Shown here in pieces: positions 4,515 through 20,359 of a DNA stretch of 27,473 nt. Below the pieces are notes generated by a model, which was not told the origin of the DNA, ran no database searches, and saw only the letters and a program-made list of their open reading frames with translations. The stretch's first letter is position 1. Every line of letters begins with the position of its first letter. This DNA comes from a virus: positions 1 through 27,473 of the IMG/VR virus record IMGVR_UViG_3300006754_000122; one strand, 5' to 3'. Made by a program: the position numbers and the translations under genes.

Positions 4515-4584
4515 GGTACTGCTACATAGCTCAGTAGCAAGGAACAGCAACTGGAAAGTGCAACTTTGGTGGTTAAAATGATAA

Positions 4585-4615
4585 AACCCCCTTCGAGACC
4601 TTCTCGAAGGGGGTT
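4585..4615 (-). terminator. Rho-independent terminator after endonuclease paralogue 2
   Basis: A perfect 14-bp stem (AACCCCCTTCGAGA / TCTCGAAGGGGGTT) encloses a 3-nt loop. On the minus strand the stem is followed by TTATCATTTT. It touches the stop codon of the 610-aa endonuclease gene and separates it from the next endonuclease gene, so the two are probably not one transcription unit. Confidence 0.92.
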
Positions 4616-6447
4616 CACAAGGACTTGACCCATTTGGCTTGACCGCAGTCGTAGAGCCGGTCGTACCCGAAGTCGTACCCGGTTTTGCCGCGGAACTTGG
4701 TCCGGGCGTACCGCTCTAACTCTCCTTTGACCCAGGAGAACGAGGGCTCCGGAGGGTCCTTGCTCTTCTTTACCCACCCCTGCTTGCTGAGGTAGCTGCC
4801 GTCGCCGTAGCGAAGGTCGATGAAAGTAAGGACGGACTTCGCAGATGGAAAGGCTTCCCGCACACCGTGTGTGAGGAGCCGAGAGAAACCACCCACGACG
4901 GAGGTGCCCATGGCGGGGGAAAATCTGGCCACTTCCAGCAGCTGATCCTCCTTACTCTTCCACTTGAGCTGCATCCCAGCTACGGGTTGGCCCTGGTGAA
5001 AGAGGCCGAAGGAGGAGCCCCGACCACGCCCCATGAGGTGATTCGTGTCGAAGAACGACGGGCTCAACTCAGCGAACTCAAGCTTCCGGGCAAAATGCCG
5101 GGCTGTGGATTTGCCCAGGTGGTTCATCAGGATGGAGCGACAGATCTCAGGCTTGTGGGTAAGCTCGTCGGACAGAAAGAAGAACGGACGAATTCCCCGC
5201 TTGAGGTAGCGAAGTCGCCTGTCCCGATGGTGAAACATCGCCTTTTTGCGCGCTTCTGCCTCGGGCAGATCTGCGTACCGTGACTCCAGGGCGAACATGA
5301 ACCCGTGCCAATAGTTGCCCTCACACTCAATAGCTACGTTGTGGTCGGGAAGGTAGAAGTCCGGCCGCATCTTGCTGCCGGGCAGTTGAGAGTCGTGGAC
5401 GTAGGGAAGCCCTTCTTCATGGAGCCACGACTCTACCAAGGCCTCAATGTTCGTCTTACCACGGTTGCACGTGGCCACCAGGCCCTCGACGTCACCAAGG
5501 TTCCGCATGTTGGTGCGAAGGGTGATTGGCGACACCTCAAGGAGGTCCGCAAGTTCCTGAAGTGAGCGTCCCCCAAAGACCTTGGTGGTCCCGTTCTCAC
5601 CCATCTTTGCCTGCCGGGTCTGCGCTGATGGTGCGAACACAAACTCCGGGTCGGAGCGTAGCTTCTTGAGGAACTTCTGCGCGGGGGCGGTCACCTCACG
5701 GTCGTCTCGCTGGTCCAGCACACGCAGGTGGACCATGGGCTTGCCGTTTCGCCTGTCTTTTCTGTCGACCTCCAGGAGCTTCAGGTGCGGCGCCTGGCTG
5801 TCGAACATGGCCTGGTACCACTCAAAGGAAGATTGCGAAGGGAGCCCAACCTTGGCAGGGAGCCGGCTCCGGTTGAGGCCCATGTCCTTCGAGATGGAAG
5901 AAATAGACTCCCCCGACGCCCACCTCTTGATGACGGTACGCGACAGCTCATCCGAAGTCTTTTCTAGCAACCCGTGAAGCACGGACCCAGGGGCGCAGGG
6001 CTCGAAGGCCGCGTCCCGGTAGACGGCTAGAGGATCATGGGGAGGATCGAAGTAGAAGTCTGGATCGGAGCCTTGCCCCAGAAGGTCTTTGAGGGGGACT
6101 TTCTCGATGCTCTCGGCCTTCAGCGATAAGGCAACTACCATGCAGGTGTCGTCGTCCCGGTAGGACGCGGAGAGGACCCTGAAACGACCCTTACCGATGG
6201 TATCGTCCAGCTTCTCCTGGCAGAGATCTTCCAGGACACCCTGGTGTTTGAACTGGTGGTAAGGGTTGACCCGAAGGCTATAACCCAGCTTGTGACCCCT
6301 TTTCTTGAAACTCCTTTTGTTGGAGTTGTCATAGAGGAGCCAGTAATCACCTTTAGGGTGAGGTAACACCCTGAGAAGCCTGAACCTATTATCGTGGGGA
6401 TAGGTGGCTAACAGCTTTCTTGCTTTCTTTAACTTTTCTGAGGGCAT
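4615..6447 (-). CDS. Free-standing Vsr/EDxHD-like homing endonuclease with repeat modules, paralogue 2
   Basis: This 610-aa protein starts at an ATG preceded by GGGAGAGG. It carries degenerate repeat modules at residues about 5-67, 74-134 and 209-272, a first HTH-like stretch (IKRWASGESISSISKDMGLN, 173-192) and a second one (RSLQELADLLEVSPITLRTN, 294-313). The nuclease core lies at about 330-445: IEALVESWL, MRPDFYLPDHNVAIECEG, NYWHGF. The C-terminal domain has FFDTNHLMGRGRGSS (465-479), VVGGFSRLL, the GNAT-like IDLRYGDGSYLSKQGW (543-558) and LYDCGQAKWVKSL at the very end. It lies just downstream of the MCP gene, next to a decayed copy of the MCP 3' end and terminator, as expected for a mobile endonuclease that homes near the capsid gene. 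It is a candidate driver, in trans, of the ORF-less MCP intron. The exact target is unknown. Confidence 0.78.
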   Translation of the reverse strand: MPSEKLKKARKLLATYPHDNRFRLLRVLPHPKGDYWLLYDNSNKRSFKKRGHKLGYSLRVNPYHQFKHQGVLEDLCQEKLDDTIGKGRFRVLSASYRDDDTCMVVALSLKAESIEKVPLKDLLGQGSDPDFYFDPPHDPLAVYRDAAFEPCAPGSVLHGLLEKTSDELSRTVIKRWASGESISSISKDMGLNRSRLPAKVGLPSQSSFEWYQAMFDSQAPHLKLLEVDRKDRRNGKPMVHLRVLDQRDDREVTAPAQKFLKKLRSDPEFVFAPSAQTRQAKMGENGTTKVFGGRSLQELADLLEVSPITLRTNMRNLGDVEGLVATCNRGKTNIEALVESWLHEEGLPYVHDSQLPGSKMRPDFYLPDHNVAIECEGNYWHGFMFALESRYADLPEAEARKKAMFHHRDRRLRYLKRGIRPFFFLSDELTHKPEICRSILMNHLGKSTARHFARKLEFAELSPSFFDTNHLMGRGRGSSFGLFHQGQPVAGMQLKWKSKEDQLLEVARFSPAMGTSVVGGFSRLLTHGVREAFPSAKSVLTFIDLRYGDGSYLSKQGWVKKSKDPPEPSFSWVKGELERYARTKFRGKTGYDFGYDRLYDCGQAKWVKSL

Positions 6448-6538: not shown

Positions 6539-6674
6539 GGCTTTTCTTAGTGATTTCAGCTAGTTATCAGGCTTTTAGGATCGACCACTACCAAGCTCTT
6601 TTTATGCCTTAAAAAGAAAAGCCCCGTTCGCACTGCGAACGGGGCTTTTCTCAATGGTTTCAGCTAGTTATCAG
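6539..6674. repeat. Imperfect 32-bp direct repeat: MCP 3' end and terminator start, duplicated
   Basis: Copies at 6539-6570 and 6643-6674 (104 bp apart) match at 29 of 32 positions. The shared 3' core is TTTCAGCTAGTTATCAG (6554-6570 and 6658-6674). The second copy includes the MCP stop codon and one arm of the MCP terminator. Beyond the 32 bp, similarity continues only weakly into a degenerate version of the terminator stem. This looks like a duplicated MCP 3' end that is decaying, placed between the MCP and the endonuclease gene. Confidence 0.85.
6615..6651 (-). terminator. Rho-independent terminator of the major capsid gene
   Basis: A perfect 17-bp stem (AGAAAAGCCCCGTTCGC / GCGAACGGGGCTTTTCT) with a 3-nt loop lies 20 bp after the MCP stop. 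On the minus strand it is followed by a T-rich run (TTTTTAAGGC). The A/T ends on both arms would also let it work in the plus direction. Confidence 0.93.
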
Positions 6675-9086
6675 ACGCGAACGCCACGATCACACGCTCG
6701 GCCATTGACGATCAGCTGCGATTGGATCTGCTCCATGAACCAACCACGACGCGCACGACCCAGGTTGTACTGGTCGATCGCCCTGGAATCCAGTTCCTTG
6801 CGCTGGAGAATCGCGCCAAGCGTCACGGGTGACGCGGTGACGTAAACCTCACCAGGCTGCAGGACCTGCAGGGTGTCGTAGCGGAAACCGTCTGTGATGA
6901 TTTCCATGCCGAGCATGGAACCAAGACGACCCTCAAGGATAAGCTCATGCTTGTGGACCTGGTCCCACCAAGCAACAAAGTCGGCATCTGCGATGATGTC
7001 ATCCCAGATGTCGAAGCTGATGAGCATGGTGGACGCCGGGGTGCCCCAGCGGTTGACCTGGGTACGGAGCGTGGTCAGCACGGACGGGTTGAACGTTGTG
7101 AACATCACAAGCTCGTTGAACGTTGTGCTGGCCTGGTTGAGAAGCGCGCGGGTGATGAGGTCCTCGCGGCGAAGAATCGCCTCAAGGCCGTCCTGGAACT
7201 TCGTTGTTTGTTACTGATCAGTAGTTGGACCGTATAAATCCAACCACTAACCGGGAAGGTCATTTCTGCCTTCCTCTGCAGTTTCATGTATAGCTGCAGA
7301 CCAGACTATATCTTCTACCAAGTTGGGTTCCTTGGCAGTGCCGCCCCCTGCTACGAGGTCTCCCCCGTTAGCAGCCGAATTATCGTCATGTCGTCACCAG
7401 CACTCTAGGGCTTGTTACCCTGCCCCAGGGTGCCTCCGATTTAGACTTTCGGTAGTCGTTACGCACACCTGACAGTTTCCCGTCAGGCTTCACTCGGTGT
7501 GGCCTTGCCTGTTCCACCAGGTTCAAGGTTTCCACCGATTTCGCGGCATTTGCTAACATCCTATTGCTAGAATGAGACGAGTTAGTTGAACTTCTCGTCG
7601 AGAATGTCCGTCGAGGCCTGCTCGATCTCCTTGTCCTCAATGAGGATGAAGGCACCGAGGTAGAACTCTGCCGGGTAGACCCACGGCTGACGGATGCGCT
7701 GCTCTTCGATCGCGCTGTCGCTGGTGAACTGGTACGCGACCACGTCCTTACGACGAACACGAACACGACCGGTCTGTCCCTTTGCAAGCGGGTTCACCGC
7801 CAGAAGGCGGCGGCTGAAGCCCTGGCGACCCAGGGTCTCCCCATTGATGTTACGCTGCACATTTCTGTTGCAGCCTGCGTCTTCATTTATTCACGCAGAT
7901 CGGACTATATCTTCACCCCTCGTAGAGGGGGACTGGTACATAGTCTCTACACCTTCCCTGCACTGATTGCTCGCGCGCACAGCGTTCAACCCTCACGGGT
8001 ATCGGGCTCGGCTCGGTATTGTCTAAGGATAGTGGGCGGTAGCTTATAGTGCATGGAATCTACCATGCAGACATAGGGGGCAGCGAGGTTCCAGAACTCT
8101 TCTTGAGACTTTGCCCGAAGGTTTAAGTACCAGTATTGGTTCTGGCGCTGGATGCTGAAACTGAGGTTGAACCTATCGTAAAGACAGGCAGCAAGTGCTT
8201 CGTTTTCAACAAGTGAGTATGCGTGAGTGGCGAACACAACCTCCCAACACTTTGCTGAGGTGTCGCGAGATTTGTCTGATCTTCCCTTCCACTTCAGACT
8301 TCCGTCATCCATGTACCATATGGCCAGCCCGAGAGGACTGAGGGAGTTTACTAGGTGCCTGTCCACTGTTCGTCTTCCTTCGAAGTATAGACGATGTCTC
8401 AGTTTACCGAACAATGGGTGTGCTTTCGCACGCAGTCTCAGTACGTCATAGCTACCGCTAACGTAGCCTTTGCCATTTGGATAGTTGTACTTGGAGTAGG
8501 TGGTCTTACAGACCTGATTGAGGATGTCACATTTGAAATCCATCAAGTCCGTACTGTCAGCTTTGTGCTCAATGAGCACAGATGCTGTGTTTTTACCACT
8601 GGCCTCTAAGTGTGCGTCTCCGAGAGCCATCCCAATGATGGCGCCCTTCAACTCTTTTCTATTCATCTGACCACAGATTTTCACCGAATTCTCCAGTATT
8701 TGTCATGCCCATTGCTGGACAAGGATCCTAGGAGTTAAGATCTCCTCGGAGAGAACCTCTCCGAGAACCTCAAGCTTGGTGTTTGACCGGTCGTAGTAAG
8801 CTTCCCGTACCTGAGCGAGGCGCTCCTGCATGACCTCGGGGGACGCGTGACGTTCCATCACGTTACCCTCGCGGCTCTGCTGAAGCACGTTCGCGACGAC
8901 CTGCATAAGCTCCTTCTTGGAAGAAGCGTTTAGCTCGCCATTGGAACCGAACGCGGGACCTGAGCTGAGAAGCTGACGACCAGCGACACGGATACCTCCA
9001 CGGAGGCCATCCTCGGAAGTCGCGGGGACGTCGGGCTGCGAACGCAGGACCTTTACGCCGGGACCAGAAGCATAGGGGTTTGCCAT
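6671..9086 (-). CDS. Major capsid protein, interrupted by two group I introns (3 exons)
   Basis: Exons are 9086-8738, 7841-7591 and 7198-6671 (minus strand). Joined they give 1128 nt, or 375 aa plus stop. Exon 1 starts MANPYASGPGVKVLRSQ and ends LGEVLSEEI plus one T. That T and GG from exon 2 make Trp117, giving EEIWETLGRQGFSRRLL. Exon 2 ends EIEQASTDILDEK; exon 3 continues FQDGLEAILRRED. The joined text restores motifs I associate with myovirus capsid proteins of this type (EDKEI, DGLEAI, RLGSMLG..I.TD.FR, RRGWF near the C-terminus). The HK97-like fold is inferred. Portal, protease and scaffold-like genes upstream fit this call. No exon alone encodes a plausible product, so capsid production should depend on splicing. 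The ribosome site before the ATG is weak (ACGGAAATAG). Confidence 0.9.
7199..7590 (-). ncRNA. Group I intron without ORF in the capsid gene (intron 2)
   Basis: About 392 nt separate the DEK and FQDG codons of the MCP. On the minus strand the core has a conserved R-type element (AACGACTACCG at 7460-7450) and S-type element (GAAGATATAGTCTGG at 7315-7301), whose GACTA and TAGTC pair to form P7. Downstream hairpins (CTGCAG pair at 7276-7299; GGAAGG/CCTTCC; GTTGGA/TCCAAC) fit P9 elements. No reading frame of note lies inside. The ends are ambiguous because GAAGTTC occurs at both junctions (7594-7588 and 7202-7196); any cut within it yields the same mRNA. Confidence 0.85.
7842..8737 (-). ncRNA. Group I intron with endonuclease ORF in the capsid gene (intron 1)
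   Basis: This 896-nt intron has well-supported ends. The exon ends GATCT and pairs with intron GGATC (8725-8721) with the standard U-G pair at the 5' splice site (P1). Directly 5' of that guide, CTCCT pairs with the start of exon 2, GGGAG (P10). The last intron base is G. The core R-type element (AGAGACTATG region, RC of 7939-7947) and S-type element (GAAGATATAGTCC, RC of 7902-7914) pair to form P7. The endonuclease ORF lies between the 5' P-like region and the Q/R/S region. Splicing restores Trp117 of the capsid protein. Confidence 0.92.
7986..8666 (-). CDS. Intron-encoded LAGLIDADG homing endonuclease
   Basis: This protein of about 226 aa lies inside intron 1. It has two LAGLIDADG-type motifs: GAIIGMALGDAHLE near the N-terminus and GLAIWYMDDGSLKWKG about 100 residues later. 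Each carries an acidic residue at the catalytic position (GD and DD), so it is a two-motif monomeric enzyme. A GTG at 8684 gives six extra residues; the ATG at 8666 is chosen here, and neither has a clear ribosome site. It should cut intronless capsid alleles at the exon 1/exon 2 junction and so spread intron 1. The frame looks intact, so the enzyme may be active. Confidence 0.9.
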   Translation of the reverse strand: MNRKELKGAIIGMALGDAHLEASGKNTASVLIEHKADSTDLMDFKCDILNQVCKTTYSKYNYPNGKGYVSGSYDVLRLRAKAHPLFGKLRHRLYFEGRRTVDRHLVNSLSPLGLAIWYMDDGSLKWKGRSDKSRDTSAKCWEVVFATHAYSLVENEALAACLYDRFNLSFSIQRQNQYWYLNLRAKSQEEFWNLAAPYVCMVDSMHYKLPPTILRQYRAEPDTREG

Positions 9087-9800: not shown

Positions 9801-10301
9801 CTACTTTTCCTTTGCTGGGTTTGCCTTGCCTGAAACTGAGGTGGCGAACGCCTGGCAGTATGAGATCAACTTGGGAGCGACTCGATCTAACTGAGTCGCT
9901 TTCTTCTCTGCTTCGATGAGTGACTTTTTGGCCTTGTTGGACATCGCGAGATAGAGGGAGATCTTGATGAGCAGCCGCGTGAAGTTCTTGTGGCCACTCT
10001 TACCCAGGTAGGAGAAGTTCACGGGCACTTTCTGCGGCTCCAGGGAGCCTAACTCGGACTTCCCCACTGCGTAGTGGGCCTCGAACGACTCGAAAATACT
10101 CTCCAACTGGTCCAGGTACTTGACTTCAATCTTGGAAGGTAGGCGAACCTGCGACAGTGACTCCCACGCCTGCTTGAGGAAGCTCTGCACGCGTTGGTTG
10201 TGTTCCGCCACGGACCCTGAAGAGACCTGCGACGCTTCTTCTGCCTGCTTCTGGACGGTTTCTGCCAGCCGCACTAGCTCATTTGTGTAATGCTGGGACA
10301 T
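9801..10301 (-). CDS. Helical hypothetical protein, 166 aa
   Basis: This 166-aa protein is rich in Lys, Gln, Glu and Leu and is predicted mostly helical (NELVRLAETVQKQAEEASQV near the start; LIEAEKKATQLDRVAPKLIS near the end), with a Lys-rich C-terminus. Its ATG shares one base with the stop of the upstream beta-helix gene (TAATG), so translation is probably coupled. No family recognised. As the gene just after three fibre/spike-like genes it could be a chaperone or adaptor for them; that is a guess from position. Confidence 0.75.
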   Translation of the reverse strand: MSQHYTNELVRLAETVQKQAEEASQVSSGSVAEHNQRVQSFLKQAWESLSQVRLPSKIEVKYLDQLESIFESFEAHYAVGKSELGSLEPQKVPVNFSYLGKSGHKNFTRLLIKISLYLAMSNKAKKSLIEAEKKATQLDRVAPKLISYCQAFATSVSGKANPAKEK

Positions 10302-11905
10302 TAGCTACTACGCTGTACAATGGAACCGTCGTTCAAAGTTGTATCTGTGACGAAGGACCCCGCAGAGACTGAAGCAAATGTCGCTGTGGCAGGGGTATTC
10401 CCTACAGAGATCTGGCTTCCGCTAACTGTACCCAGTGTAGGCGTGGTAGCGTAAGAGATGCGACCACCCTCTAGGGAGCGGGCTCCGTCTACCGCTGTAT
10501 TAAGGGTCCATCCAGCGTAAATCTGGATGTTCGCACCGTCTGACGCCTGTACGCCGTTTGTGACAGAGTCGATCACAGTGCCGGTGCCTACCCATACTGT
10601 GGCCCTGGCCCCCTCGCACTGGATCGCCGATACGAACGCACCCTGCGTGTTGTTCACACGGCTGGCGACGCCAAGGGGCGGGGTAGCTCCTGGAGCTTGG
10701 ACGCCGAATGACACATGGATAGCTTCGTGCTCGAAAGCCGAGTCTGCGATCGCGCGGATCGGACCGCTGTGGATGTTCCCGGCAATGAAGTGCCTCCCAG
10801 AGAAAACCACATACCTAGGGGACACAATGAACCCACGAACCACTCCAGTTGAGTTTAGCCACACAGGGAAGTGGGCGTCGTAGTTGAGTCCCCACCCCAG
10901 CCACTGAGTATCGGTGTCAGTGAGGGAACTGGATAGTGCTGCCATGGACGAGCCTGACCCGAGCAACAACTCACCACCTGAAATGTACCCGCGACTAAAC
11001 GCCCCGGCGTAGGTTATCTCGCACCCAATCAACCCCAGCCTGGCACCCGCGCTGAAGCGTAGGTCTTGCGTTGTGGGTGCTAGGTGGGTGTTGATAAGGC
11101 GGAACCCTGAGGAGAAGTCACCATAGGGAGGGGAGGTGCTTAGGACGTCAGAAGACGCTACTAGGGGTGCGTCTACGGGAGGAAGGATAACGTTACCCGC
11201 GTCAGGCTCTACGATTCTGTAGGTATCACCTGGCGCCACTGCAGCGCTGAAGAGCGCAGCGGGGTAAATGGCAGTGGTGGTGTTTCGTTCAACAGTTCGC
11301 CGATCCCCGGCTGCGGCCCCACTGAGGATTTCAATCGTCTTGCCCCGGAAGGCGTTGTCGGTAAACCCAGTGCCGTCTACTAGTGTGTTGTTGCTTCCTG
11401 CCCCAGCAGCTGTCGACGACAGCAGCTCTGCGAACTCACTGAAGTAGATCTCAATCTTCGCGTTTGAGGTGAACTGACGATAGACAGTTGAGGACCAGGA
11501 GTAGCCTGCACCCGGGTGAGGGGCAACATTCACGACTACATCGTGGGCAACTAGATCGGGAACCCTGTTCCATACCTCATCGATTGAGGCTAGCGGCTCC
11601 AAGCGACTGCCAGAATTTGCGTTGTTTCCTGTGGATGCATCAACAAAGAGCGTGATAGCCCTTGAGGTTTTGGTCATCTGGTTTGACAGTGGCAAGAATT
11701 CACCTGCATTGTCTCCAGAGTTCCTGTTCTCGGACGCAAACCACGAAACCAGTCCAGCGGCCTCTAGGGTTGCTAGACGGGAACGAACTTTCTCCACCTC
11801 GTCAACTCGAACGTCCAGTTCTTTGGTCTGTCCTGGCTTGAGGCTGCCGATAGTCCCACCAACCGTTACTACACTGGCTGTAGTGTTGCTTATTGTAAGT
11901 AGCAT
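10301..11905 (-). CDS. Beta-helix fibre/spike-like structural protein, paralogue C
   Basis: This 534-aa protein starts at an ATG with GGAG six bases upstream. An N-terminal unit of about 60 aa (MLLTISNTTASVVTVGGTIG ... ETKELDVRVDEVEKV) is shared in form with the two upstream genes. From about residue 85 it reads ITLFVDASTGNNANSGSRLE and then PLASIDEVWNRVPDLVAHDV, the opening rung typical of right-handed parallel beta-helix phage proteins, followed by Gly/Asn/Thr/Ser-rich repeats to the end. FRGKTIEILSGAAAGDRRTV closely matches paralogue B. Tail spike, tail fibre or head fibre are all possible, and a glycan-binding or depolymerase function is plausible but not shown. No catalytic motif can be assigned by eye. 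Confidence 0.75.
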   Translation of the reverse strand: MLLTISNTTASVVTVGGTIGSLKPGQTKELDVRVDEVEKVRSRLATLEAAGLVSWFASENRNSGDNAGEFLPLSNQMTKTSRAITLFVDASTGNNANSGSRLEPLASIDEVWNRVPDLVAHDVVVNVAPHPGAGYSWSSTVYRQFTSNAKIEIYFSEFAELLSSTAAGAGSNNTLVDGTGFTDNAFRGKTIEILSGAAAGDRRTVERNTTTAIYPAALFSAAVAPGDTYRIVEPDAGNVILPPVDAPLVASSDVLSTSPPYGDFSSGFRLINTHLAPTTQDLRFSAGARLGLIGCEITYAGAFSRGYISGGELLLGSGSSMAALSSSLTDTDTQWLGWGLNYDAHFPVWLNSTGVVRGFIVSPRYVVFSGRHFIAGNIHSGPIRAIADSAFEHEAIHVSFGVQAPGATPPLGVASRVNNTQGAFVSAIQCEGARATVWVGTGTVIDSVTNGVQASDGANIQIYAGWTLNTAVDGARSLEGGRISYATTPTLGTVSGSQISVGNTPATATFASVSAGSFVTDTTLNDGSIVQRSS

Positions 11906-11907
11906 TC

Positions 11908-13530
11908 TTATCTCCGATCAACTCGAATGATGGTACTACCATCAGCCGATATAACAAAATCTCCGTAGTTGCTCAGATCAACCGAAAATTGTGCTTGAAC
12001 GGGAGTTCCCTCGCCCACTTCTATTTCAGTTGTCGCGGTTACTACAGCTCCGCTGTTGTAGTAAATGCGTGAACTACGGTTCAACTGGACCCCAAGATCT
12101 GCAAGAATCTGTGTCGTCCCTGCGATGGTCCCCACAGCCCCTTCAATCACTCTAAGACCAACACCGTTGGTTGGTGCGCTGAGAATAGCCTCCTCGATGT
12201 AGATCTCCGAATCGGGACCAAGAGCGGAGGCGGCGGCACCGCCATCATCGACATTTGTGATAGTGATCTGATCGTCAGGCAGGTAGACCTTGCCATTAAC
12301 AGCCAATCTTCCACCAATAGCGCGTACCCCCGACGCGTAACAGTTCCCCCCACGCAACTCAACGTTTGAGCTAAGAGATACTAGTCGGGGGCCCACAAAT
12401 GCGTAGAGCCAGCATCCGCCAATCTTGGCTTCCCTAGACACAAATATGACGTTGGAATATATTCCCCAACCTACCCAGGCTCGCGGGGACACATTGGCCA
12501 GACGTTGGCCTATGTCAGCTAGTTCTTCGTACACTTGCCCAGGTTCCCCTCCTGGAGGTCCGAACACGCGATCGATGCCGGCTGCAAAGTGCCCTTCGAA
12601 GAATCCCCAAAAGGATCCAGAGTCGTTGACCTCGCAACCAAAAACACGCACGGGGTGAGAGTGAATAGCGTACACAAAGGGAGCGGGGTTAAAGATGAAG
12701 TTGACGAAGTTGATGCTGGGATGGACTTCGTAGTTGGATTTGAAGCCGTAGTTGATGGACTTGACATTACCCTTTGCCACGAACCAACGTCCCTGCGGCT
12801 CTAACCTCGCCACGTCAATGACGGTAATGGGCTCCAGGATACGAAATGAAACGCCAGGACTGAGAGATCCAAACAGCTGGCAGAAACTTATCTCAGAAGT
12901 CGTGTTTGACTTGATGGTGCGTCTAAACCCACGGTTGTCACCTGATGTGATTTCAATGGTCTTTCCCCTGAACTCATCCTCAACCAATGGCGTGTCAGAG
13001 ACAAGCTGTACGTGAGTAGTTCCTGCTTGGGCAGTTCCTGTCAGGAGTTCATTGAACCCATCGTTATGAGTTCCCCCTGAGTCTGCAACGATGTCCACAC
13101 TATGGTGGTATACTCTCTCACGGAACTCAGGGGGAATGTACCCATCTTCAGCTATTGAATGAGGGGCCACGTGTATTACCACAGGGTGGGCCACGATATC
13201 CGGAATTCGTGACTCAGCCTCTACGAGAGAGGAGAGAGGTGCGGATTTGCTCCCTACCGCTGTGTCAGACCCGCGACGAGCATCCACCCATAGATGCAGC
13301 GGCCCTTGAGTTTTAGTGGCCAATGCCTGTGCGGGTAGGAAGTTGGTGTCTTCAGACTCAAGCCTCCAAGAAAGCAGGCCTAGCCGCTGAAACTCGTTCA
13401 GTGAATCCTCTACCTGCTCAAGGAAGGCTACGGTAATGGGTCGGCGTATAGTCTTCCCAGTGCCAAGGACGCCCAAAGGCGAGCCCAGGTTGAGCGTACT
13501 CGCAGTTCTGCTCTCGACTACAACTATCAT
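11908..13530 (-). CDS. Beta-helix fibre/spike-like structural protein, paralogue B
   Basis: This 540-aa protein overlaps the upstream gene by ATGA (start at 13530, upstream stop at 13527). It has the same plan as its neighbours: an N-terminal unit of about 60 aa (MIVVVESRTASTLNLGSPLG ...), then LHLWVDARRGSDTAVGSKSA, PLSSLVEAESRIPDIVAHPV and a long beta-helix-like region. FRGKTIEITSGDNRGFRRTI and FRILEPI are shared with paralogue C, so these two are the closest pair. The C-terminus (YGDFVISADGSTIIRVDRR) resembles that of paralogue C (DTTLNDGSIVQRSS). Probably an exposed virion appendage; the exact place on the particle is not known. Confidence 0.75.
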   Translation of the reverse strand: MIVVVESRTASTLNLGSPLGVLGTGKTIRRPITVAFLEQVEDSLNEFQRLGLLSWRLESEDTNFLPAQALATKTQGPLHLWVDARRGSDTAVGSKSAPLSSLVEAESRIPDIVAHPVVIHVAPHSIAEDGYIPPEFRERVYHHSVDIVADSGGTHNDGFNELLTGTAQAGTTHVQLVSDTPLVEDEFRGKTIEITSGDNRGFRRTIKSNTTSEISFCQLFGSLSPGVSFRILEPITVIDVARLEPQGRWFVAKGNVKSINYGFKSNYEVHPSINFVNFIFNPAPFVYAIHSHPVRVFGCEVNDSGSFWGFFEGHFAAGIDRVFGPPGGEPGQVYEELADIGQRLANVSPRAWVGWGIYSNVIFVSREAKIGGCWLYAFVGPRLVSLSSNVELRGGNCYASGVRAIGGRLAVNGKVYLPDDQITITNVDDGGAAASALGPDSEIYIEEAILSAPTNGVGLRVIEGAVGTIAGTTQILADLGVQLNRSSRIYYNSGAVVTATTEIEVGEGTPVQAQFSVDLSNYGDFVISADGSTIIRVDRR

Positions 13531-15221
13531 AGAACATCCGCAATCGTGCTGAGCCAGGTTGTGTCCGTTACCCTGCCCGCTGAATCAATGGCAGCCCATG
13601 TAAGGTCGGTAGCCCCAAGCCTAACGTCAACACCCCCATTGCCGAATACAGTTTGAACACCATTCACACGAAGATGGCACCCCTCCCTAGCGAGGATAAC
13701 CCGGGTGTTTGCAGTAGGAAGTGTGTTTTGTGTAACGTCCCAAGGAGCTACAGTCAGCATTGAACTAGCGATGGAGGTTGACGTTGTCATGGACACGTTA
13801 CTACAATCAAACACGTTGCTGGAGATGTGAGCCACATCCAGTTTGAGAGTCCCAGTGAAGTTCGCAGTGCAGTTGAAAAGGTGCACGTGCCCCCGCAGTA
13901 GTGGCGTTACCCCATTACCAGATAGGCATATCCACACCGTATCTGACAACTCAAGCCGTACATTTATCAATGCAGCGCCACGCGTCCAAAGCGTGTGTTG
14001 CCCGTTAGCGAGTGTAACAGCGCCGCTTACCACTCCCTCCAGCTGGACATCCGACCCAGAGTTTAGGGAAGCCAAGGCTCTCGTGGTTATCACCCCTGTC
14101 GTATTTTGGATACTGGAGCACCAGGTTCGCCAGAGACCAGACTCGGTGGAATTAAGTCCTACCTGCTCTAAGCCAGACAGAGGAAGCGCTCCCACAGAGC
14201 CCTTACTCAACTTAAATGAAGAACCCTGAGTCAGCTGAACAACCCCTGAAGAAGAACTCCCTCTCCCGGCCGAGCCCACCAGATCGATATCACAGGGTCC
14301 GTGCGTAACCAGCGATTCGAACTGAAACCCCACAAGGAAAAGTCTATACCCGGGACTTGTCGATAGACCCAGGCTGCCCACCTTCACAGTAGGTTCGACT
14401 ATGTAGAGTCTGTCGGTAGTTTGGGGTGTAGTGGAGAACAGCGCATTTGCATGTGTTTGAATTGTAAGCGTCTGTCCCAAACCCTCGTGGGCCACAACAC
14501 ACCCACGCCACTTTTCCTCGCCTGACACGCCATCGAAGCAGCGCACCTGCCTACAAGTATAAGTGTTGTCTGCTTCTGCAAAAGTCCCAGGGTTGAAGGT
14601 ATAGATGAAGCGACGATCCCTAGTCTCAGTTGCGACGGGTGTCAGTGGTCCCTTCAAAACATCAAACCTGGGGTCTGTTGTTGAGTTGACTGAATCTGAC
14701 CAGCTGGCGATGTAGATGCTTCCCCAGTACGGGACCTGGCTTGTCCCAAAATCCAGGTACCCGCCAAGGCTACTGATTTGGCTGGGGGTCTGTAAAGTCA
14801 CGAGAGGACCCAGATCGTAGGGGGCTTTTACCCAAATGACGAAAGCTTTCTCAGGAGACGACGCCGTGAGTGCTAGGATAGGGACATCGGCAAGAGCCCT
14901 CTCTATCGTTTTGTAAGGGTCACTTTGTGTCCCCCTACCCTCAGCATCACTGCCGTCAGCGGCCACGTAGCGCGCGGCGGGAACAGTCTGTAGCTGAGAA
15001 AGGACAAGTGATTCGAATTCGTCGTCTTCTGTTGTGGCCGTGTTTCTAACGTTGAAGTCTATTACTCCACGTGATCTGAGTGCTATGAGCGCGGTTGAGG
15101 ACGCGTCCAACTCCGTTGAGGTCAATACGTACTCCCTCACACCACCTGCGGGCAAGGTACCTAGGTCTGCATTGATGGATACAGTAGACGAGCTTGTATT
15201 CTGTACGTACAGCAGCGGCAT
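13527..15221 (-). CDS. Beta-helix fibre/spike-like structural protein, paralogue A
   Basis: This 564-aa protein counts from the ATG at 15221 (MPLLYVQNTSSSTVSINADL). The frame is open further upstream to 15710, but that part lies antisense to the HD gene and is not protein-like, so this start is preferred even without a good ribosome site. The N-terminal unit of about 60 aa resembles paralogues B and C (VSINADLGTLPAGGVREYVL). Then follow ARYVAADGSDAEGRGTQSDP and YKTIERALADVPI, the classic beta-helix opening. The rest is rich in Thr/Ser/Gly/Val repeats. It is the most diverged of the three and the first gene of this minus-strand run. Confidence 0.75.
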   Translation of the reverse strand: MPLLYVQNTSSSTVSINADLGTLPAGGVREYVLTSTELDASSTALIALRSRGVIDFNVRNTATTEDDEFESLVLSQLQTVPAARYVAADGSDAEGRGTQSDPYKTIERALADVPILALTASSPEKAFVIWVKAPYDLGPLVTLQTPSQISSLGGYLDFGTSQVPYWGSIYIASWSDSVNSTTDPRFDVLKGPLTPVATETRDRRFIYTFNPGTFAEADNTYTCRQVRCFDGVSGEEKWRGCVVAHEGLGQTLTIQTHANALFSTTPQTTDRLYIVEPTVKVGSLGLSTSPGYRLFLVGFQFESLVTHGPCDIDLVGSAGRGSSSSGVVQLTQGSSFKLSKGSVGALPLSGLEQVGLNSTESGLWRTWCSSIQNTTGVITTRALASLNSGSDVQLEGVVSGAVTLANGQHTLWTRGAALINVRLELSDTVWICLSGNGVTPLLRGHVHLFNCTANFTGTLKLDVAHISSNVFDCSNVSMTTSTSIASSMLTVAPWDVTQNTLPTANTRVILAREGCHLRVNGVQTVFGNGGVDVRLGATDLTWAAIDSAGRVTDTTWLSTIADVL

Positions 15222-15305
15222 ACACACAAGATAACTGGCTGGAACTGGGTGAGTTAGCCCATCCGTCAACCCTGGGCATAGTAGAGAGTATGGAGATTTC
15301 GTACC
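15222..15305. promoter_or_regulatory. Divergent intergenic region
   Basis: These 84 bp separate the minus-strand beta-helix run from the plus-strand HD gene, so they should hold promoters for both directions. TTGACG occurs on the minus strand (RC of 15262-15267), but no matching -10 box is found at normal spacing, so a phage-specific promoter is likely. A GGAG site for the HD gene lies at 15292-15295. Confidence 0.4.
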
Positions 15306-15953
15306 ATGGATGAAGTTACACTGCAGACGGTCAGCAAGGCGGCATACTGGGCCATCAAGCACCACGATGGCCAGTGGCGCAAGGGAGGCGACGGTCCTCC
15401 CTACGTGACGCACTGCGCCCGCGTAGCAGAGACCGCAGCCCGCATGCTGGGAGACTCGTCTCCCAGACAGATGAATGGCAGACACGCCATCCAGTGTGTG
15501 GCGTGGCTGCACGACATCGTGGAGGACACTGCTGTCACGATCGAAGAGATTCGAGCGGAGTTCGGCAACACGATCGCAGAGAGTGTCGAGGCTCTGACTC
15601 TCAACGACGAGGAGCAGCGCAACTGGGAGCTGAAGCTCAAGTCGCAGATCGAGGCGGTGCAGAGTGCAAGCCACATCTCTGTTCCCATGGTCAAGCTGGC
15701 GGACAAGCACTGCAACGTGATCGACCTGGTCACCATGCCTCCGCCCAACTGGTCTCCAGAGAAGGTACTCGGATACGCAAATAGCTCTCTTCAGGTGGCA
15801 ATGGAGTGCTACAAGTCGCTACTGGAGACTACTATCTGGGGTGTGTTTTCTATCAACCCGGAAGAGATCGAGGCTGTTCTGGAGGAAATGAAGGCGGCAC
15901 ACAAGGCCCTGGCCATTTCCCTTGTGAAGCACGTAGCGGAAGGGGTTGCGTGA
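15306..15953 (+). CDS. HD-domain (p)ppGpp hydrolase-like protein (MESH1/SpoT-HD type)
   Basis: This 215-aa protein has the full motif set of RelA/SpoT-type HD hydrolases: HHDGQWRKGGDGPPYVTH (RKGG with Arg25; His36), WLHDIVEDT (His69-Asp70, Glu73-Asp74) and VKLADKHCN (Asp133, Asn137). Stand-alone enzymes of this size (MESH1-like small alarmone hydrolases) remove the 3' pyrophosphate from (p)ppGpp. There is no synthetase domain. The start has GGAG 10 nt upstream. It is the first gene of the plus-strand block, opposite to the virion genes, as expected for accessory cargo. It could keep host alarmone low during infection. Hydrolysis of another nucleotide is possible. Confidence 0.85.
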   Translation: MDEVTLQTVSKAAYWAIKHHDGQWRKGGDGPPYVTHCARVAETAARMLGDSSPRQMNGRHAIQCVAWLHDIVEDTAVTIEEIRAEFGNTIAESVEALTLNDEEQRNWELKLKSQIEAVQSASHISVPMVKLADKHCNVIDLVTMPPPNWSPEKVLGYANSSLQVAMECYKSLLETTIWGVFSINPEEIEAVLEEMKAAHKALAISLVKHVAEGVA

Positions 15954-16372
15954 TGGAACCGGACGTAGCGGACAAGATCTGGCCCATGGCTTCCCCTGAG
16001 ACAGTTCGTGAGAGCTTCAGGTCACTGAAGCTCTCAGAGGAAGTCACGAATATCCTGGTGGATATCTACACAGAGGTCCATGACGGAGTCCGTGAGTTCC
16101 TCAACCAGGACCTCTACTACGTGAACTCGGTAACCAGCAGTGAACTGGCTCCGCCTGGGTTGACCCGTGAGCCCCCGTCAGCTGAGAACGCCCTTCAGTG
16201 GGTGGCCGACCAGACGGGTAAGGACCGGAGCGAACTACGGCTCGTCAAGATGGGGATGAACACGTTCCGTATCGAGGTGGAAGCGGGGATTTACGACGAC
16301 ATCAGGTTCACCAAGCTGAACTGGTGGGCCCACCCTGATACGGTTGAGAAGCGCCGGGAGGAAACTGAGTGA
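15953..16372 (+). CDS. Hypothetical protein, 139 aa
   Basis: The ATG overlaps the stop of the HD gene (TGATG) and has AGGGG upstream. The 139-aa product is acidic and soluble. No domain recognised. The N-terminal half is helical (ETVRESFRSLKLSEEVTNIL); the C-terminal half looks alpha/beta (SELRLVKMGMNTFRIEVEAG). It is translationally coupled to the HD gene and to the next gene. Starts further upstream lie inside the HD gene and are not needed. Confidence 0.7.
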   Translation: MEPDVADKIWPMASPETVRESFRSLKLSEEVTNILVDIYTEVHDGVREFLNQDLYYVNSVTSSELAPPGLTREPPSAENALQWVADQTGKDRSELRLVKMGMNTFRIEVEAGIYDDIRFTKLNWWAHPDTVEKRREETE

Positions 16373-16557
16373 TGTCAAACCACAGCGAGTTGCTCACTGC
16401 AGTCCGAGACGCACTGGCTGCGATCCATGGACCGGCGGTTAGTGTCGCCCCTCCGAGTCCGCGAGTACTGTCCCTACGGAAACAACTTCTTCAGGACCAG
16501 CCAGAGCTGACAGTGCACGGGACGGGAAGTTCGCTTCCCAACAGGTCGAGGCGGTGA
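16372..16557 (+). CDS. Small hypothetical protein, 61 aa
   Basis: The ATG overlaps the preceding stop (TGATG), with GAGG about 10 nt upstream. The 61-aa product has a short helical start (SELLTAVRDALAAIHG), a Pro-rich middle (VSVAPPSPRVLSL) and a basic end (SLPNRSRR). No family recognised. The chain of overlapping starts and stops on either side argues that it is real. Confidence 0.6.
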   Translation: MSNHSELLTAVRDALAAIHGPAVSVAPPSPRVLSLRKQLLQDQPELTVHGTGSSLPNRSRR

Positions 16558-16961
16558 TGCAAAAAACAAAGATCCGAAGCCCTGAAGCTTATGTCAAGTT
16601 CCTTGTGGAACAACCATTCTTCCGTAGTAGGTGTGTAGAAGACATCGAGAGGTTTGCAGGTATTGCCTTCGCTTACGTGACCGATGGCAAAGTCATCTAC
16701 CCAGCAGCCGACGACTTTCCTGAGGAGGACGAGCCGCTGGTCGATGACGCTAAGGTAGATTTCTCACAATTCAAGCTTGCACGTCGCGGTAATGACGACT
16801 ACTGCTGGCCCGAACAGTTTCCATGTCTCGTGGTCTCTCTACTAGAGGATGGTCACGACAGGGCAGGCAAGTTCGGTATCGCGGCAGTGGAGTTCGTCTA
16901 CCCCAGTGATGTCGACTTTTTGTTACACAAAGTAGAGATCAAAGAGCATGGAAAAGTCTGA
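16557..16961 (+). CDS. Hypothetical protein, 134 aa
   Basis: The ATG overlaps the previous stop (TGATG), with GAGG 5 nt upstream. The 134-aa product is acidic in the middle (DDFPEEDEPLVDDAKVDF) and has hydrophobic strands near the end (FPCLVVSLLEDG; IAAVEFVYP). No known domain. It overlaps the next gene by 14 nt. Confidence 0.7.
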   Translation: MQKTKIRSPEAYVKFLVEQPFFRSRCVEDIERFAGIAFAYVTDGKVIYPAADDFPEEDEPLVDDAKVDFSQFKLARRGNDDYCWPEQFPCLVVSLLEDGHDRAGKFGIAAVEFVYPSDVDFLLHKVEIKEHGKV

Positions 16962-17220
16962 CCTCAAGCAGCTCGCTAATTCCCTGTACACCGCTATTTG
17001 CTACGATAACAACCACTGCGTAGTTGTTAATGGCATCGGAGTTAGCGTTGCTCACGCTAAGGGTATGATAGCATTAGCTGAAGCCATGATAGGCGGCTCT
17101 GTTACGCTGTCCGTAGAAGAGTTCTCACTAACAGGTGAGCGTACCGTACTATTCACCAACGCGCCTGAAGGAACTCCTTCAGATGCGCCTACTGCCGACC
17201 CTGCTGAGCCGCCCCAGTAA
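16948..17220 (+). CDS. Hypothetical protein, 90 aa
   Basis: This 90-aa product starts inside the end of the previous gene. Residues 20-60 are hydrophobic to amphipathic (HCVVVNGIGVSVAHAKGMIA), followed by a Thr/Pro/Ala-rich acidic tail. No clear TM helix and no recognised family. The base composition here is more A/T-rich than in the flanking genes, which may point to a separate origin. Confidence 0.6.
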   Translation: MEKSDLKQLANSLYTAICYDNNHCVVVNGIGVSVAHAKGMIALAEAMIGGSVTLSVEEFSLTGERTVLFTNAPEGTPSDAPTADPAEPPQ

Positions 17221-17247
17221 AGGCATCATCCCAGGAGTATGAGTCAA

Positions 17248-17484
17248 ATGAGTGAAGTAGAGAAGCTGATGGTAGATATTCTGGACGTGACAGCTCCCCA
17301 GATGGTGATCGACATCCTAGAGGACATAGAAGAGAGACTAAACCTACTGACAGAGAACGAGGATGCGTCCACACTGGAGTTGAACCCTGGGTTGGTGCGA
17401 ATGTTCCAGGAACGTCTCTCAGAACTAGAGCATGGGGAGCTTGTGCCTCTGTGCGCCAATATTAGATACTACCTGGGTTGCTGA
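17248..17484 (+). CDS. Small acidic hypothetical protein, 78 aa
   Basis: The ATG at 17248 sits 10 nt after AGGAG; the ATG at 17239 is too close to that site and would add three residues. The 78-aa product is acidic and helical (KLMVDILDVTAPQMVIDILE; DIEERLNLLTENED). No family recognised. The next gene starts on its stop codon. Confidence 0.65.
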   Translation: MSEVEKLMVDILDVTAPQMVIDILEDIEERLNLLTENEDASTLELNPGLVRMFQERLSELEHGELVPLCANIRYYLGC

Positions 17485-18047
17485 TGCAGATCCTTAACTG
17501 GCTCGATAAGCTCTACAAGAAGTCGACCCCAGGCGAATGGGTACACACCGGGGATGTCACTCCTCGCGTCATTGACTGGCATGACGCTCCTGAGGGGCAC
17601 GATCCCACCACGATAGTGGAATCTGAAGAAGACGCTCTGTTCCTCGTTACCCTCCGCAACGTGTTTCCACAGCTGATGGAGGTGGTCCGAGCAGCCGAAG
17701 AGCTAAATCTGCAGGTGAAGGACTCAGACCTTAAGGATGCGCTCTCTAACCTGGAGATGAAACTGCGGGAAGAGAGCGAAGAGCATGAGTGTCCGGGCTG
17801 CGAAGGGGAAGACTTCATCTCGTCTAACCGTGCAGGTGCCGAGTGCATGAACCCCAGCTGCGAGTACTATAGCCAGCCGTTTACCCTCAGCGAGATAACG
17901 CGCGAAGTAAAACGACGCCTCAGGCTCATCAGCGGGGGGTCAGTCCCACAATTCGAGCCAACGTTCAAGGGATGGACGGTGTCTAGGGTGTCTCCTGCAG
18001 TTGTTAGATGGTCACGAGGGAAAGAGCACTTTGACTTCCCCCTGTGA
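17484..18047 (+). CDS. Hypothetical protein with Ea22-like N-terminus and zinc knuckle
   Basis: This 187-aa product has an ATG overlapping the preceding stop (TGATG). The N-terminal part (STPGEWVHTGDVTPRVIDWH ... EEDALFLVTLRNVFPQLMEV) resembles the Ea22-like phage proteins, which share a 'TPGPW ... NDA.FI...RN..P.LL' pattern. A zinc-ribbon-like motif follows (Cys103, Cys106, Cys121, Cys126: CPGC ... CMNPSC). Function unknown; a regulatory or nucleic-acid-binding role is inferred from the zinc motif. Its end overlaps the third endonuclease gene. Confidence 0.6.
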   Translation: MQILNWLDKLYKKSTPGEWVHTGDVTPRVIDWHDAPEGHDPTTIVESEEDALFLVTLRNVFPQLMEVVRAAEELNLQVKDSDLKDALSNLEMKLREESEEHECPGCEGEDFISSNRAGAECMNPSCEYYSQPFTLSEITREVKRRLRLISGGSVPQFEPTFKGWTVSRVSPAVVRWSRGKEHFDFPL

Positions 18048-19599
18048 CGAAGTAGAGAAGTACCAGAAGAAGCTAGACCTGCTCTCACCGGGCAGGTTTC
18101 GCATTTTGGAGCTTGTTGCCGTAACCAGGTACGGAAAAGCCCGCAATATCCAGCGCAGGTTCCGTTTCCGCGACGTTCAAACCGGAGCTGAGTTCGAGTA
18201 CTACTGGCACAAGATCCAGGCCGAACTTAAGAAGAACCCGGAGAAGACTTTCCAAACGGAGGACACCCGGTCCGACACGGAGAAGTATCAGGAGCAGCTG
18301 GATGACCTGGCTCCCAGAAGGTTCTCCGTACTTCAATGCTTCAACAAGCAGCCTAGCCCTGAGAGCCGGAGCCGCAAGTACGTCAGAGTCCAAGACTCCA
18401 AGTACTCTACGGAGTTCGACTACGACATTGGAGCACTGAAGCAGGAGCTGAGGGCTAACCCTGACTCGCGCTTCTTCGTCGAAGAGTTCTGCGAGAAGGA
18501 CTTCACGTCCGAAACTCAGTCCAAATTTGACGTCCTGTCGCCGGGGAGACTGAGGATACTGGGCGCACGACGCACGGGTCCTCCATACAAGTACGAGATT
18601 GACTTCATCGACACCTGGTCATGGCGAAAGTGGGAGGGTGAGAACCCATACACGTGGATCCGAGGACTGACCGAGGACCCCGAGTACTCCCGCCAGGAGG
18701 CCATTGAGCTGGAGGGTAAGACCCTGCCGCAGATTGCGGAAGAGCACGGCTACAGTCGGGCGCACATCCACAAGCTATACAAGAAGTGGGGCGATGACTT
18801 CATCGACTACCTGAAGCCCCATGCTCCCTACTCACCGCTGGAGGTGCTGGTACAGGGGTGGCTTGATGGAGAAGAGGTGGTCCTAGGCAAGAAGCTCGAC
18901 GGTACCAACATCTTCCCAGACGTATATCTGCCGCAGCACAACCTGGCGGTGGAGTGCGATGGTCTGTACTGGCACTGCGATCGCTTCCGCGACAGGCGTT
19001 ACCACTTCGAGCGCCGACAGACCTACGAGTCAGTAGGAGTCAGGGCCCTCTTCTTCCGAGAAGATGAGCTGCTGGAAAAGCCGGAGATCTGCCAGGGCAT
19101 TCTACAGAACGCGCTGGGAAGGAGCCGTAGGGTGTTCGCCCGTAAGACCACGCTCGGCAGTGCTCCACCCTCTTTCTTTGAGAAGAACCACCTCATGGGT
19201 AAAGGAAGTGGCCGAGGCTACGGTCTGTACCACGACGGGGACCTGGTAGCGGGGATGAGAGTTCGATGGGTTTCAAAGTCTCAGAGACAGCTCGACGTCT
19301 CTCGGTTCTGCACCAAGCTGGGTGTATCCGTTGTGGGTGGTTGGTCCAAGCTACTCAAGCACGTCATTGGCCAGGAAGACCCTTCATCCATTCGTACCTT
19401 CGTAGACATGAGGTACGGAACAGGGGCCTACCTAGAAAAGATGGGGTGGAAGCTGGAGTCTTGCCACGCCAGCTTCAACTGGACGAAGGGGATGGAGTCG
19501 TTGCACCGGCTACGCTACCCTGGGAGTTCTGGGTATGAGGCGGGGTACCGAAAGATATGGGACTGCGGGCAAGCCAAATGGGTGTTGCAGGTGAATTAG
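18031..19599 (+). CDS. Free-standing Vsr/EDxHD-like homing endonuclease with repeat modules, paralogue 3
   Basis: This product of about 522 aa probably starts at TTG 18031 (GAGGGAAAG upstream); TTG 18001 is the other option, and no ATG precedes the first domain. Three repeat modules lead (about residues 8-75, 83-150 and 160-220; first one KYQKKLDLLSPGRFRILE ... AELKKNPEKTF). An HTH-like stretch follows (TLPQIAEEHGYSRAHIHKLY, about 231-250), then the nuclease core (about 265-370: LEVLVQGWL, FPDVYLPQHNLAVECDG, LYWH). The C-terminal region has SFFEKNHLMGKGSGRG, SVVGGWSKLL, the GNAT-like VDMRYGTGAYLEKMGW and IWDCGQAKW at the end. It is the only paralogue on the plus strand and ends at a strong terminator. 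It sits 12 kb from the other two, consistent with mobility. Confidence 0.78.
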   Translation: MTSPCDEVEKYQKKLDLLSPGRFRILELVAVTRYGKARNIQRRFRFRDVQTGAEFEYYWHKIQAELKKNPEKTFQTEDTRSDTEKYQEQLDDLAPRRFSVLQCFNKQPSPESRSRKYVRVQDSKYSTEFDYDIGALKQELRANPDSRFFVEEFCEKDFTSETQSKFDVLSPGRLRILGARRTGPPYKYEIDFIDTWSWRKWEGENPYTWIRGLTEDPEYSRQEAIELEGKTLPQIAEEHGYSRAHIHKLYKKWGDDFIDYLKPHAPYSPLEVLVQGWLDGEEVVLGKKLDGTNIFPDVYLPQHNLAVECDGLYWHCDRFRDRRYHFERRQTYESVGVRALFFREDELLEKPEICQGILQNALGRSRRVFARKTTLGSAPPSFFEKNHLMGKGSGRGYGLYHDGDLVAGMRVRWVSKSQRQLDVSRFCTKLGVSVVGGWSKLLKHVIGQEDPSSIRTFVDMRYGTGAYLEKMGWKLESCHASFNWTKGMESLHRLRYPGSSGYEAGYRKIWDCGQAKWVLQVN

Positions 19600-19630
19600 A
19601 AAAGGCCGGGTCGAAAGACCCGGCCTTTTC
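19599..19630. terminator. Bidirectional terminator between convergent genes
   Basis: A perfect 14-bp stem (GAAAAGGCCGGGTC / GACCCGGCCTTTTC) is capped by a GAAA tetraloop. It begins at the last base of the plus-strand endonuclease stop codon and is followed by TTT. The arm's A-run gives a U-run in the other direction. It should also stop readthrough from the minus-strand head gene whose stop is at 19655. Confidence 0.95.
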
Positions 19631-19654: not shown

Positions 19655-20359
19655 TCAGCTCTTCTTGACACCGAGCATGGCATCGCCAACGCTCGGGACC
19701 TTGGAGCAGAAACCGATCTCTGTTCCACCGGCAGCGCTGGTCACGAGACCCGCGGCGCCAGTGTAGAGGGCGCCGCCCACTGCGTACGCCTGTGAAGAGT
19801 CGTACACTGTGGTGAAGATCTCGAACTCAGACCCGTCACCGATCACGGATACCTGCGAAAACAGCTCCTGTGCTCGGTTGTTGATGCTACGCTCGTGCTC
19901 AGTCGCAAGGATCTCGGCGAGGGTGGGCTGGTAGCGGTAGTAGATGGTGACGGTCTCACCAGCCTGGGCCGCATTGAATTCAGCGGTACCCGCGGAGTCA
20001 TCCACGGAGTACTGACCTGCGGCGGGCGGACTCGCCGCCTCGGTAAGCGCACCTGAAGTGCTCGCTACTGCGTAAGTGCTCCCAGCAACAAGGCTGGAAT
20101 GGGCGAGGGTGGAGGTGCCACCGCCGGTCGGGACCACAAGCTCCTCCACCACCGGAGCGGTGACGTAGCTCATGCTGTCGGTAAGGGCGAAGCCCGCGAA
20201 ACGCTCACCGCCAGCACCAGCGGACGGCTGAACCGCCATGGTGCCGTCGCCAGCGTCAACGTAGACGAGGCACTGGGCCTCCTCTGTGATCGTCGCGCCG
20301 GCCGCAAGGGGACGCTCGCGAAGATCGTTGTGGTAACCACGTGTAAGATCGAATGCCAT
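19655..20359 (-). CDS. Putative head/decoration structural protein, 234 aa
   Basis: This 234-aa protein starts at an ATG with AGAGGA 9 nt upstream. The first 60 residues (RPLAAGATITEEAQCLVYVD ... ERFAGFALTDS) follow the 'RPL..G..I..G..V..D ... FAGFA' plan seen in small beta-rich phage head or stabilising proteins. The middle is rich in Gly/Ala/Ser/Thr (TSTLAHSSLVAGSTYAVAST). Next to scaffold-like and capsid-processing genes, a decoration or head-stabilising role is likely. No single family can be named with certainty. Confidence 0.6.
   Translation of the reverse strand: MAFDLTRGYHNDLRERPLAAGATITEEAQCLVYVDAGDGTMAVQPSAGAGGERFAGFALTDSMSYVTAPVVEELVVPTGGGTSTLAHSSLVAGSTYAVASTSGALTEAASPPAAGQYSVDDSAGTAEFNAAQAGETVTIYYRYQPTLAEILATEHERSINNRAQELFSQVSVIGDGSEFEIFTTVYDSSQAYAVGGALYTGAAGLVTSAAGGTEIGFCSKVPSVGDAMLGVKKS

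Follow-up and report, generated by a model that had tools for sequence, protein, structure and literature searches.

The window analysed here, a virus record of 27,473 bp taken whole, encodes on its + strand a MESH1-like small alarmone hydrolase (SAH), a stand-alone hydrolase domain of the RelA/SpoT homolog (RSH) superfamily in which the full set of catalytic residues is intact. Because the motifs are complete and the predicted fold matches, we infer that the product is an active, metal-dependent 3'-pyrophosphohydrolase of the MESH1/SAH type, one that would cleave alarmones in the infected cell and so act against the stringent response and/or against toxic alarmone synthetases. We give this reading a probability of about two in three, drawing on sequence, a structural model and analogy to characterised enzymes.

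A stand-alone hydrolase of the RelA/SpoT homolog superfamily

The gene and the codons of its catalytic residues, numbered against Exiguobacterium Rel (locus L168), are as follows.

15292..15295, + strand: Shine-Dalgarno-like GGAG, 10 nt 5' of the SAH ATG, read from the sequence
15306..15953, + strand: SAH gene, MESH1-like, first gene of its operon, 215 aa, ATG to TGA
15378..15380, + strand: R25 codon, equivalent to Rel R44
15411..15413, + strand: H36 codon, metal ligand position, equivalent to Rel H53
15510..15515, + strand: H69-D70 codons, HD metal ligands, equivalent to Rel H77-D78
15522..15527, + strand: E73-D74 codons, catalytic ED pair, equivalent to Rel E81-D82; D74 corresponds to MESH1 D66
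15702..15704, + strand: D133 codon, metal ligand position, equivalent to Rel D144
15714..15716, + strand: N137 codon, equivalent to Rel N148

The SAH protein matches the Pfam families HD_4 (E 4.8e-13) and HD (E 1.3e-4), both above the curated cut-offs, as well as the phage family phrog_990, "metal-dependent phosphohydrolase" (E 7.1e-30). NCBIfam spoT_relA, a full-length model, is matched at E 5.3e-19, which lies below its cut-off and is confined to the hydrolase part (profile positions 3-127 of 687). Among 22 distinct PDB sequences found at E <=0.01 the best match is human MESH1 (E 1.4e-13), followed by a second MESH1 entry, the Pseudomonas aeruginosa SAH and the hydrolase domains of Rel/SpoT; a profile search from 45 aligned rows returned 23 sequences in total and reached MESH1 at 1.2e-62. 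Identity to characterised enzymes is about 24-31%, and PADLOC gave no match for the protein. Judged by match scores that lie far beyond chance, the 15306-15953 open reading frame is a real gene. Reading it as part of the overlapping minus-strand ORF at 13527-15710 was rejected, since that overlap stems from choosing the most upstream GTG; further start codons of the minus-strand ORF occur at 15269, 15227 and 15221.

An AlphaFold2 model built with 45 sequences has a pLDDT of 93.8 and a pTM of 0.91. Foldseek returned 29 PDB matches at E <=0.001 with MESH1 first (6.3e-8), then the P. aeruginosa SAH, Corynebacterium glutamicum RelH and Rel. In VIA-align the model superposes on human MESH1 with Z 21.8 (rmsd 2.5, 176 aligned), on the P. 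aeruginosa SAH with Z 20.7, on RelH with 20.0, on the L. levettii SAH with 19.3 and on the B. caccae (p)ppApp hydrolase with 17.6. Best sequence match, motif residues and hydrolase fold thus all assign the protein to the HD domain of the RSH superfamily, in line with the initial annotation of a (p)ppGpp hydrolase-like enzyme, a hydrolase-only RelA/SpoT homolog. Twenty predicted viral structures also match the model at E <=0.001; the top one is a protein of the giant virus Clandestinovirus that is named (p)ppGpp synthetase/hydrolase (BFVD A0A8F8KL62, 5.6e-9, 30% identity).

The first annotation had further described the HD hydrolase motifs as intact, and comparison with Exiguobacterium Rel bears this out for R25, H36, H69-D70, E73-D74, D133 and N137. 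We aligned the query with 80 viral loci, 80 bacterial loci and 6 annotated phages, 167 rows in all, and H20, H36, D133 and N137 occur in every row and R25 in 158; H69, D70, E73 and D74 are likewise present in 167 of 167 rows, by construction, because the viral and bacterial scans searched for that motif. The metal-ligand role of the remaining catalytic positions is one we take over from RelSeq and MESH1. D74 aligns with the position that is changed in MESH1 D66K (5vxa/9chy alignment row), and R44Q, at the position of R25, renders Rel hydrolase-defective according to a passage of PMC9765508. The ERK..Q basic helix motif of bacterial MESH1-like SAHs is reduced in the query to K110/Q114.

The hydrolase domain stands alone in its 215 amino acids, with no synthetase or regulatory domain, which is the architecture of a SAH. 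That no synthetase domain is present had been claimed before, and the claim holds on a wider scale: the spoT_relA match is restricted to the hydrolase part, and the RelA_SpoT synthetase domain (PF04607) occurs in neither of two records searched, the window and a near-identical phage contig of 388,485 bp that may be incomplete. We therefore rejected the idea that the protein is the antitoxin of a toxSAS-SAH toxin-antitoxin pair, as there is no synthetase nearby or in the 388-kb relative. A phage pyrophosphohydrolase of the MazG type was rejected as well, since the protein carries an HD domain and not a MazG domain; MazG was not found in the 388-kb contig, which is possibly incomplete.

An accessory operon between fibre-like and head genes

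The SAH gene heads a + strand run of eight genes ending at 19599, several of them joined by TGATG overlaps of stop and start codons. This run and the surrounding virion genes are listed here.

6671-7108, - strand: part of the major head protein, phrog_2522 positions 191-312, C-terminal part
15953..16372, + strand: operon gene 2, 139 aa, no known family, TGATG overlap with the SAH stop
16372..16557, + strand: operon gene 3, 61 aa, TGATG overlap
16557..16961, + strand: operon gene 4, 134 aa, TGATG overlap, no known family
16948..17220, + strand: operon gene 5, 90 aa, overlaps gene 4 by 14 nt, no known family
17239..17484, + strand: operon gene 6, 81 aa, 18 nt after gene 5, no PHROG match
17484..18047, + strand: operon gene 7, 187 aa, TGATG overlap, zinc-ribbon-like Cys pattern (by eye), no known family
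18001..19599, + strand: last operon gene, homing/HNH-type endonuclease, phrog_3339 (E 5.9e-45), start uncertain, 18001 or 18031
19608..19626, + strand: terminator-like hairpin directly 3' of the operon; such matches are no commoner than in shuffles (2 found, shuffle mean 3.4)
19655-20359, - strand: virion structural protein, phrog_16710
25025-25804, - strand: head maturation protease
25808-27442, - strand: portal

A promoter scan gave no promoter-like site upstream of 15306, with counts equal to chance. Operon genes 2 and 7 have no match among annotated phages, and in IMG/VR gene 2 is matched only in the 388,485-bp contig. On the other side of the SAH gene lie three tandem ORFs, alike by eye, that run from 10301 to about 15269 on the minus strand. 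Two of the three have weak matches to PHROGs tail families (2.2e-3 and 4.1e-4), and the ORF that adjoins the SAH gene matched no PDB sequence; the name fibre-like is a guess based on their character.

The SAH operon is wedged, inverted, between fibre-like and head genes. Its earlier description as lying inside the virion gene region is right as to position, but the virion genes are on the minus strand, whereas this gene is on the plus strand and belongs to an operon of its own. Because it is so oriented and heads its own operon, it is probably not a virion gene, and the simplest view is that it belongs to an accessory cassette. The candidate role of a virion structural protein was rejected on the same grounds of opposite strand and separate operon, and on the grounds of its enzyme family.

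About 87% of the window aligns to one stretch of the 388,485-bp IMG/VR contig (blastn; computed by hand), which places the window in a jumbo phage or in a phage closely related to one. The SAH gene is identical in the two records (648 of 648 bases), and positions 15200-16918 hold a single difference. The far part of the adjoining fibre-like gene shows 44-47 differences per 200 bases, and 10239-13533, where the other fibre-like genes lie, gave no blastn alignment to the contig. Since the fibre-like region either differs or fails to align, the cassette borders a fast recombining or diverging region, and the genes at 10301-15269 are perhaps a fast-changing host-recognition block. When the flanking structural genes were sought in other phages for a site free of the island, only the 388-kb contig was returned.

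Additional features of the window lie outside the cassette. The major head protein gene appears to be in pieces (6671-9086, minus strand): upstream of its C-terminal part lies an ORF for a LAGLIDADG endonuclease (7986-8684), an arrangement that suggests introns in the capsid gene; Rfam returned no intron at gathering scores for this region. Four homing-type endonuclease ORFs occur within 27 kb, at 2514-4550, 4615-6447, 7986-8684 (-) and 18001-19599 (+). The portal-like ORF at 25808-27442 (-) carries a Gly/Met-rich repeat stretch after its portal match.

Relatives of the phage SAH

Searching 50,697 annotated phage records by tblastn with the SAH protein gave matches in 127, all below 60% identity and some of them bacterial stretches with long SpoT; 13 records cover at least 80% of the query. 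Two Campylobacter phage records, MG065691 and MG065686, have the same SpoT match as Salmonella chromosomes (query 1-198, 27.5%), and this stretch may be bacterial DNA within the deposited entries. At least 496 IMG/VR stretches, of 598 candidates, encode SAH relatives. The best 80 of these comprise 74 ORFs shorter than 300 aa and 6 longer ones, including a 702-aa RSH that groups with bacterial RSHs. In GTDB genomes 559 of 597 candidate stretches encode relatives, and the 80 that were kept divide into 19 SAHs and 61 long RSHs. By these sequence counts phage SAHs are common.

A quick tree of all 167 rows placed the query with 17 bacterial and 12 viral SAHs (SH-aLRT 89, not starred). A more careful tree used 50 rows hand-picked from the 167 after the first tree, omitting, among others, the long-branch loci L044 and L098 that had fallen beside the query. 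There, the query groups with three phage contigs, L017, L021 and L027 (support 99/85), inside a 28-row MESH1-like side (98/91) and apart from the branch of SSU5 and BcepSaruman; the query's group of the quick tree was kept in this smaller one. The comparison with bacterial SAHs called for by the initial annotation consequently puts the query on the MESH1-like side in the best tree, but an AU test does not reject a placement with the common phage SAHs (p 0.107), and because long branches meet in the tree we give the placement with caution. What appears to be new here, and is of modest weight, is a subgroup of four divergent phage SAHs on the MESH1 side of the best tree, separate from SSU5 and its branch.

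Individual comparisons show how far the query has diverged. Metazoan MESH1/HDDC3 (3nr1, 5vxa) is alike in fold (Z 21.5-21.7), in catalytic residues and in being a stand-alone hydrolase, whereas identity over the structural alignment is 28% and the query is a phage gene with a longer connection between H36 and the HD motif. The P. aeruginosa SAH (6yvc, 6z3n) shares the fold (Z 20.4-20.7), the catalytic residues and a proline run before a conserved W, but is bacterial and 24% identical. The Salmonella phage SSU5 SAH (PaSpo) is likewise phage-encoded and stand-alone, yet it is 31% identical (alignment A1) and lies on another branch of the best tree, and the published function is that of SSU5. The SAH of Bordetella phage PHB04 (MF663786) likewise falls on the MESH1 side in the best tree and has a portal gene nearby; it is 29-33% identical to the query and, unlike it, lies on the same strand as the portal gene. 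The three grouped contigs (150, 190 and 104 kb, from IMG/VR) encode proteins 28-36% identical to the query (alignment A2) in different neighbourhoods. For example, the gene in L027 adjoins a match to a MazG/endolysin-like family and a DNA methyltransferase. Elsewhere, the SAH gene of locus L019 is preceded by genes for a portal and a minor head protein, and PHB04 likewise has its portal, so SAH genes lie near head genes in another lineage too.

Some large phage ORFs (820-1000 aa) fuse a cytidylyltransferase-like domain to the SAH HD domain (L022:3513-6512, L024:3075-5534 and L035:24-2978), and an 846-aa ORF of L028 has the HD domain with no second recognised domain. The cytidylyltransferase-like family includes NMN adenylyltransferases, and one guess is that the three fusions are associated with NAD metabolism.

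Proposed function and alternative readings

In the mechanism that we favour, a jumbo phage would express the SAH during infection, from the first gene of a small accessory operon, and the enzyme, with a metal that is probably Mn2+, would remove the 3'-diphosphate from guanosine and/or adenosine alarmones. Lowered (p)ppGpp and/or (p)ppApp would then prevent the stringent shutdown of host growth and transcription; additionally or instead, the products of toxic alarmone synthetases that serve as anti-phage toxins would be removed, the two effects being compatible. Both roles are plausible by analogy with characterised relatives. For an orphan SAH from a bacterium, hydrolysis of (pp)pGpp and pppApp in the presence of Mn2+ is described (in a passage of PMC9765508), a role in modulating (p)ppGpp or (p)ppApp has been discussed for a Pakpunavirus SAH (in part of PMC12846349), and base specificity cannot be read from SAH sequences according to a section of PMC7644958. 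The counter-defence idea is not new, since the neutralisation of toxic alarmone synthetases by phage SAHs is in print (passages of PMC11559606 and PMC7644958); the latter, citing Jimmy 2020, has the SAHs of phages SSU5 and PVP-SE1 relieving FaRel toxicity. What counts against our preferred explanation is that the query falls on the MESH1 side of the best tree, off the SSU5 branch with its published anti-toxSAS effect, although the AU test (p 0.107) does not reject the latter placement. The low identity to characterised enzymes, the reduced basic helix motif and a base specificity that sequence does not reveal weigh on the same side.

The most serious alternative, although we consider it unlikely, is a specialised anti-defence enzyme whose main substrate is the product of a toxSAS or CapRel-type enzyme, either (pp)pApp or the pyrophosphate on a tRNA 3'-CCA, with any lowering of ppGpp incidental. 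The SSU5 SAH counteracts the toxSAS FaRel2 by stripping the tRNA modification that FaRel2 makes (a passage of PMC11559606), and SAHs are frequently promiscuous, as stated in part of PMC9765508. Moreover, the query segment PPPNW at 145-149 overlaps, in the PDB sequence alignment, the site of three prolines in the P. aeruginosa SAH that the same part of PMC9765508 proposes to widen substrate range, a weak hint of promiscuity. Against this reading, ordinary bacterial relatives carry a proline run too, if shorter, no recognised defence or toxSAS gene adjoins the SAH gene, and the query is off the SSU5 branch in the best tree.

A more speculative variant, which we hold to be quite improbable, is that the query, L017, L021 and L027 form a phage-specific MESH1-side lineage in which the altered substrate helix (ERK to K) and the longer H36-HD connection have shifted activity away from ppGpp and towards, say, pyrophosphorylated tRNA or toxSAS-made (p)ppApp, with the operon partners as further counter-defence genes.

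Very unlikely, in our judgement, is a phosphatase of NADPH or PAPS like metazoan MESH1, serving phage metabolism rather than alarmone control. The closest solved structures are those of human MESH1, among them its complexes with NADPH (5vxa) and PAPS (9chy), and the three fusion ORFs described above join a SAH to a cytidylyltransferase-like domain. The SAH operon, on the other hand, shows no signs of NAD or sulfate metabolism, and NADPH hydrolysis by MESH1 was not seen in another laboratory's assay, as a passage of PMC7644958 relates. Less probable again is that the SAH is a passenger in a mobile island carried by a homing endonuclease, without benefit to the phage. The operon does end in such an endonuclease, with three more endonuclease ORFs in the window, and the island adjoins divergent fibre-like genes; yet none of the catalytic residues has been lost, two phage records share the same unbroken frame, and SAH genes recur among unrelated phages in other settings. 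Another HD-family enzyme (a dNTP triphosphohydrolase, 5'-nucleotidase or YpgQ-type pyrophosphohydrolase) shares the general HD fold but can practically be dismissed, as the first enzyme outside the superfamily in VIA-align is Bacillus subtilis YpgQ (Z 13.8, against 21.8 for MESH1; dNTPase 9.1), RSH/SAH structures come first by both sequence and fold with a wide margin, and the ED catalytic pair and K..D...N motif are of the RSH type; the better match to another HD family that had been named as a point to look for was thus found by neither route.

As a single gene, the SAH belongs, as an ordinary if distant member, to a family that many phages are known to carry. As a family, phage SAHs offer a ready test of viral answers to alarmone signalling and to alarmone-based immunity, and with a divergent MESH1-side phage lineage, separate from the SSU5 enzyme, one could tell a counter-defence activity shared by phage SAHs at large from one peculiar to a single branch.
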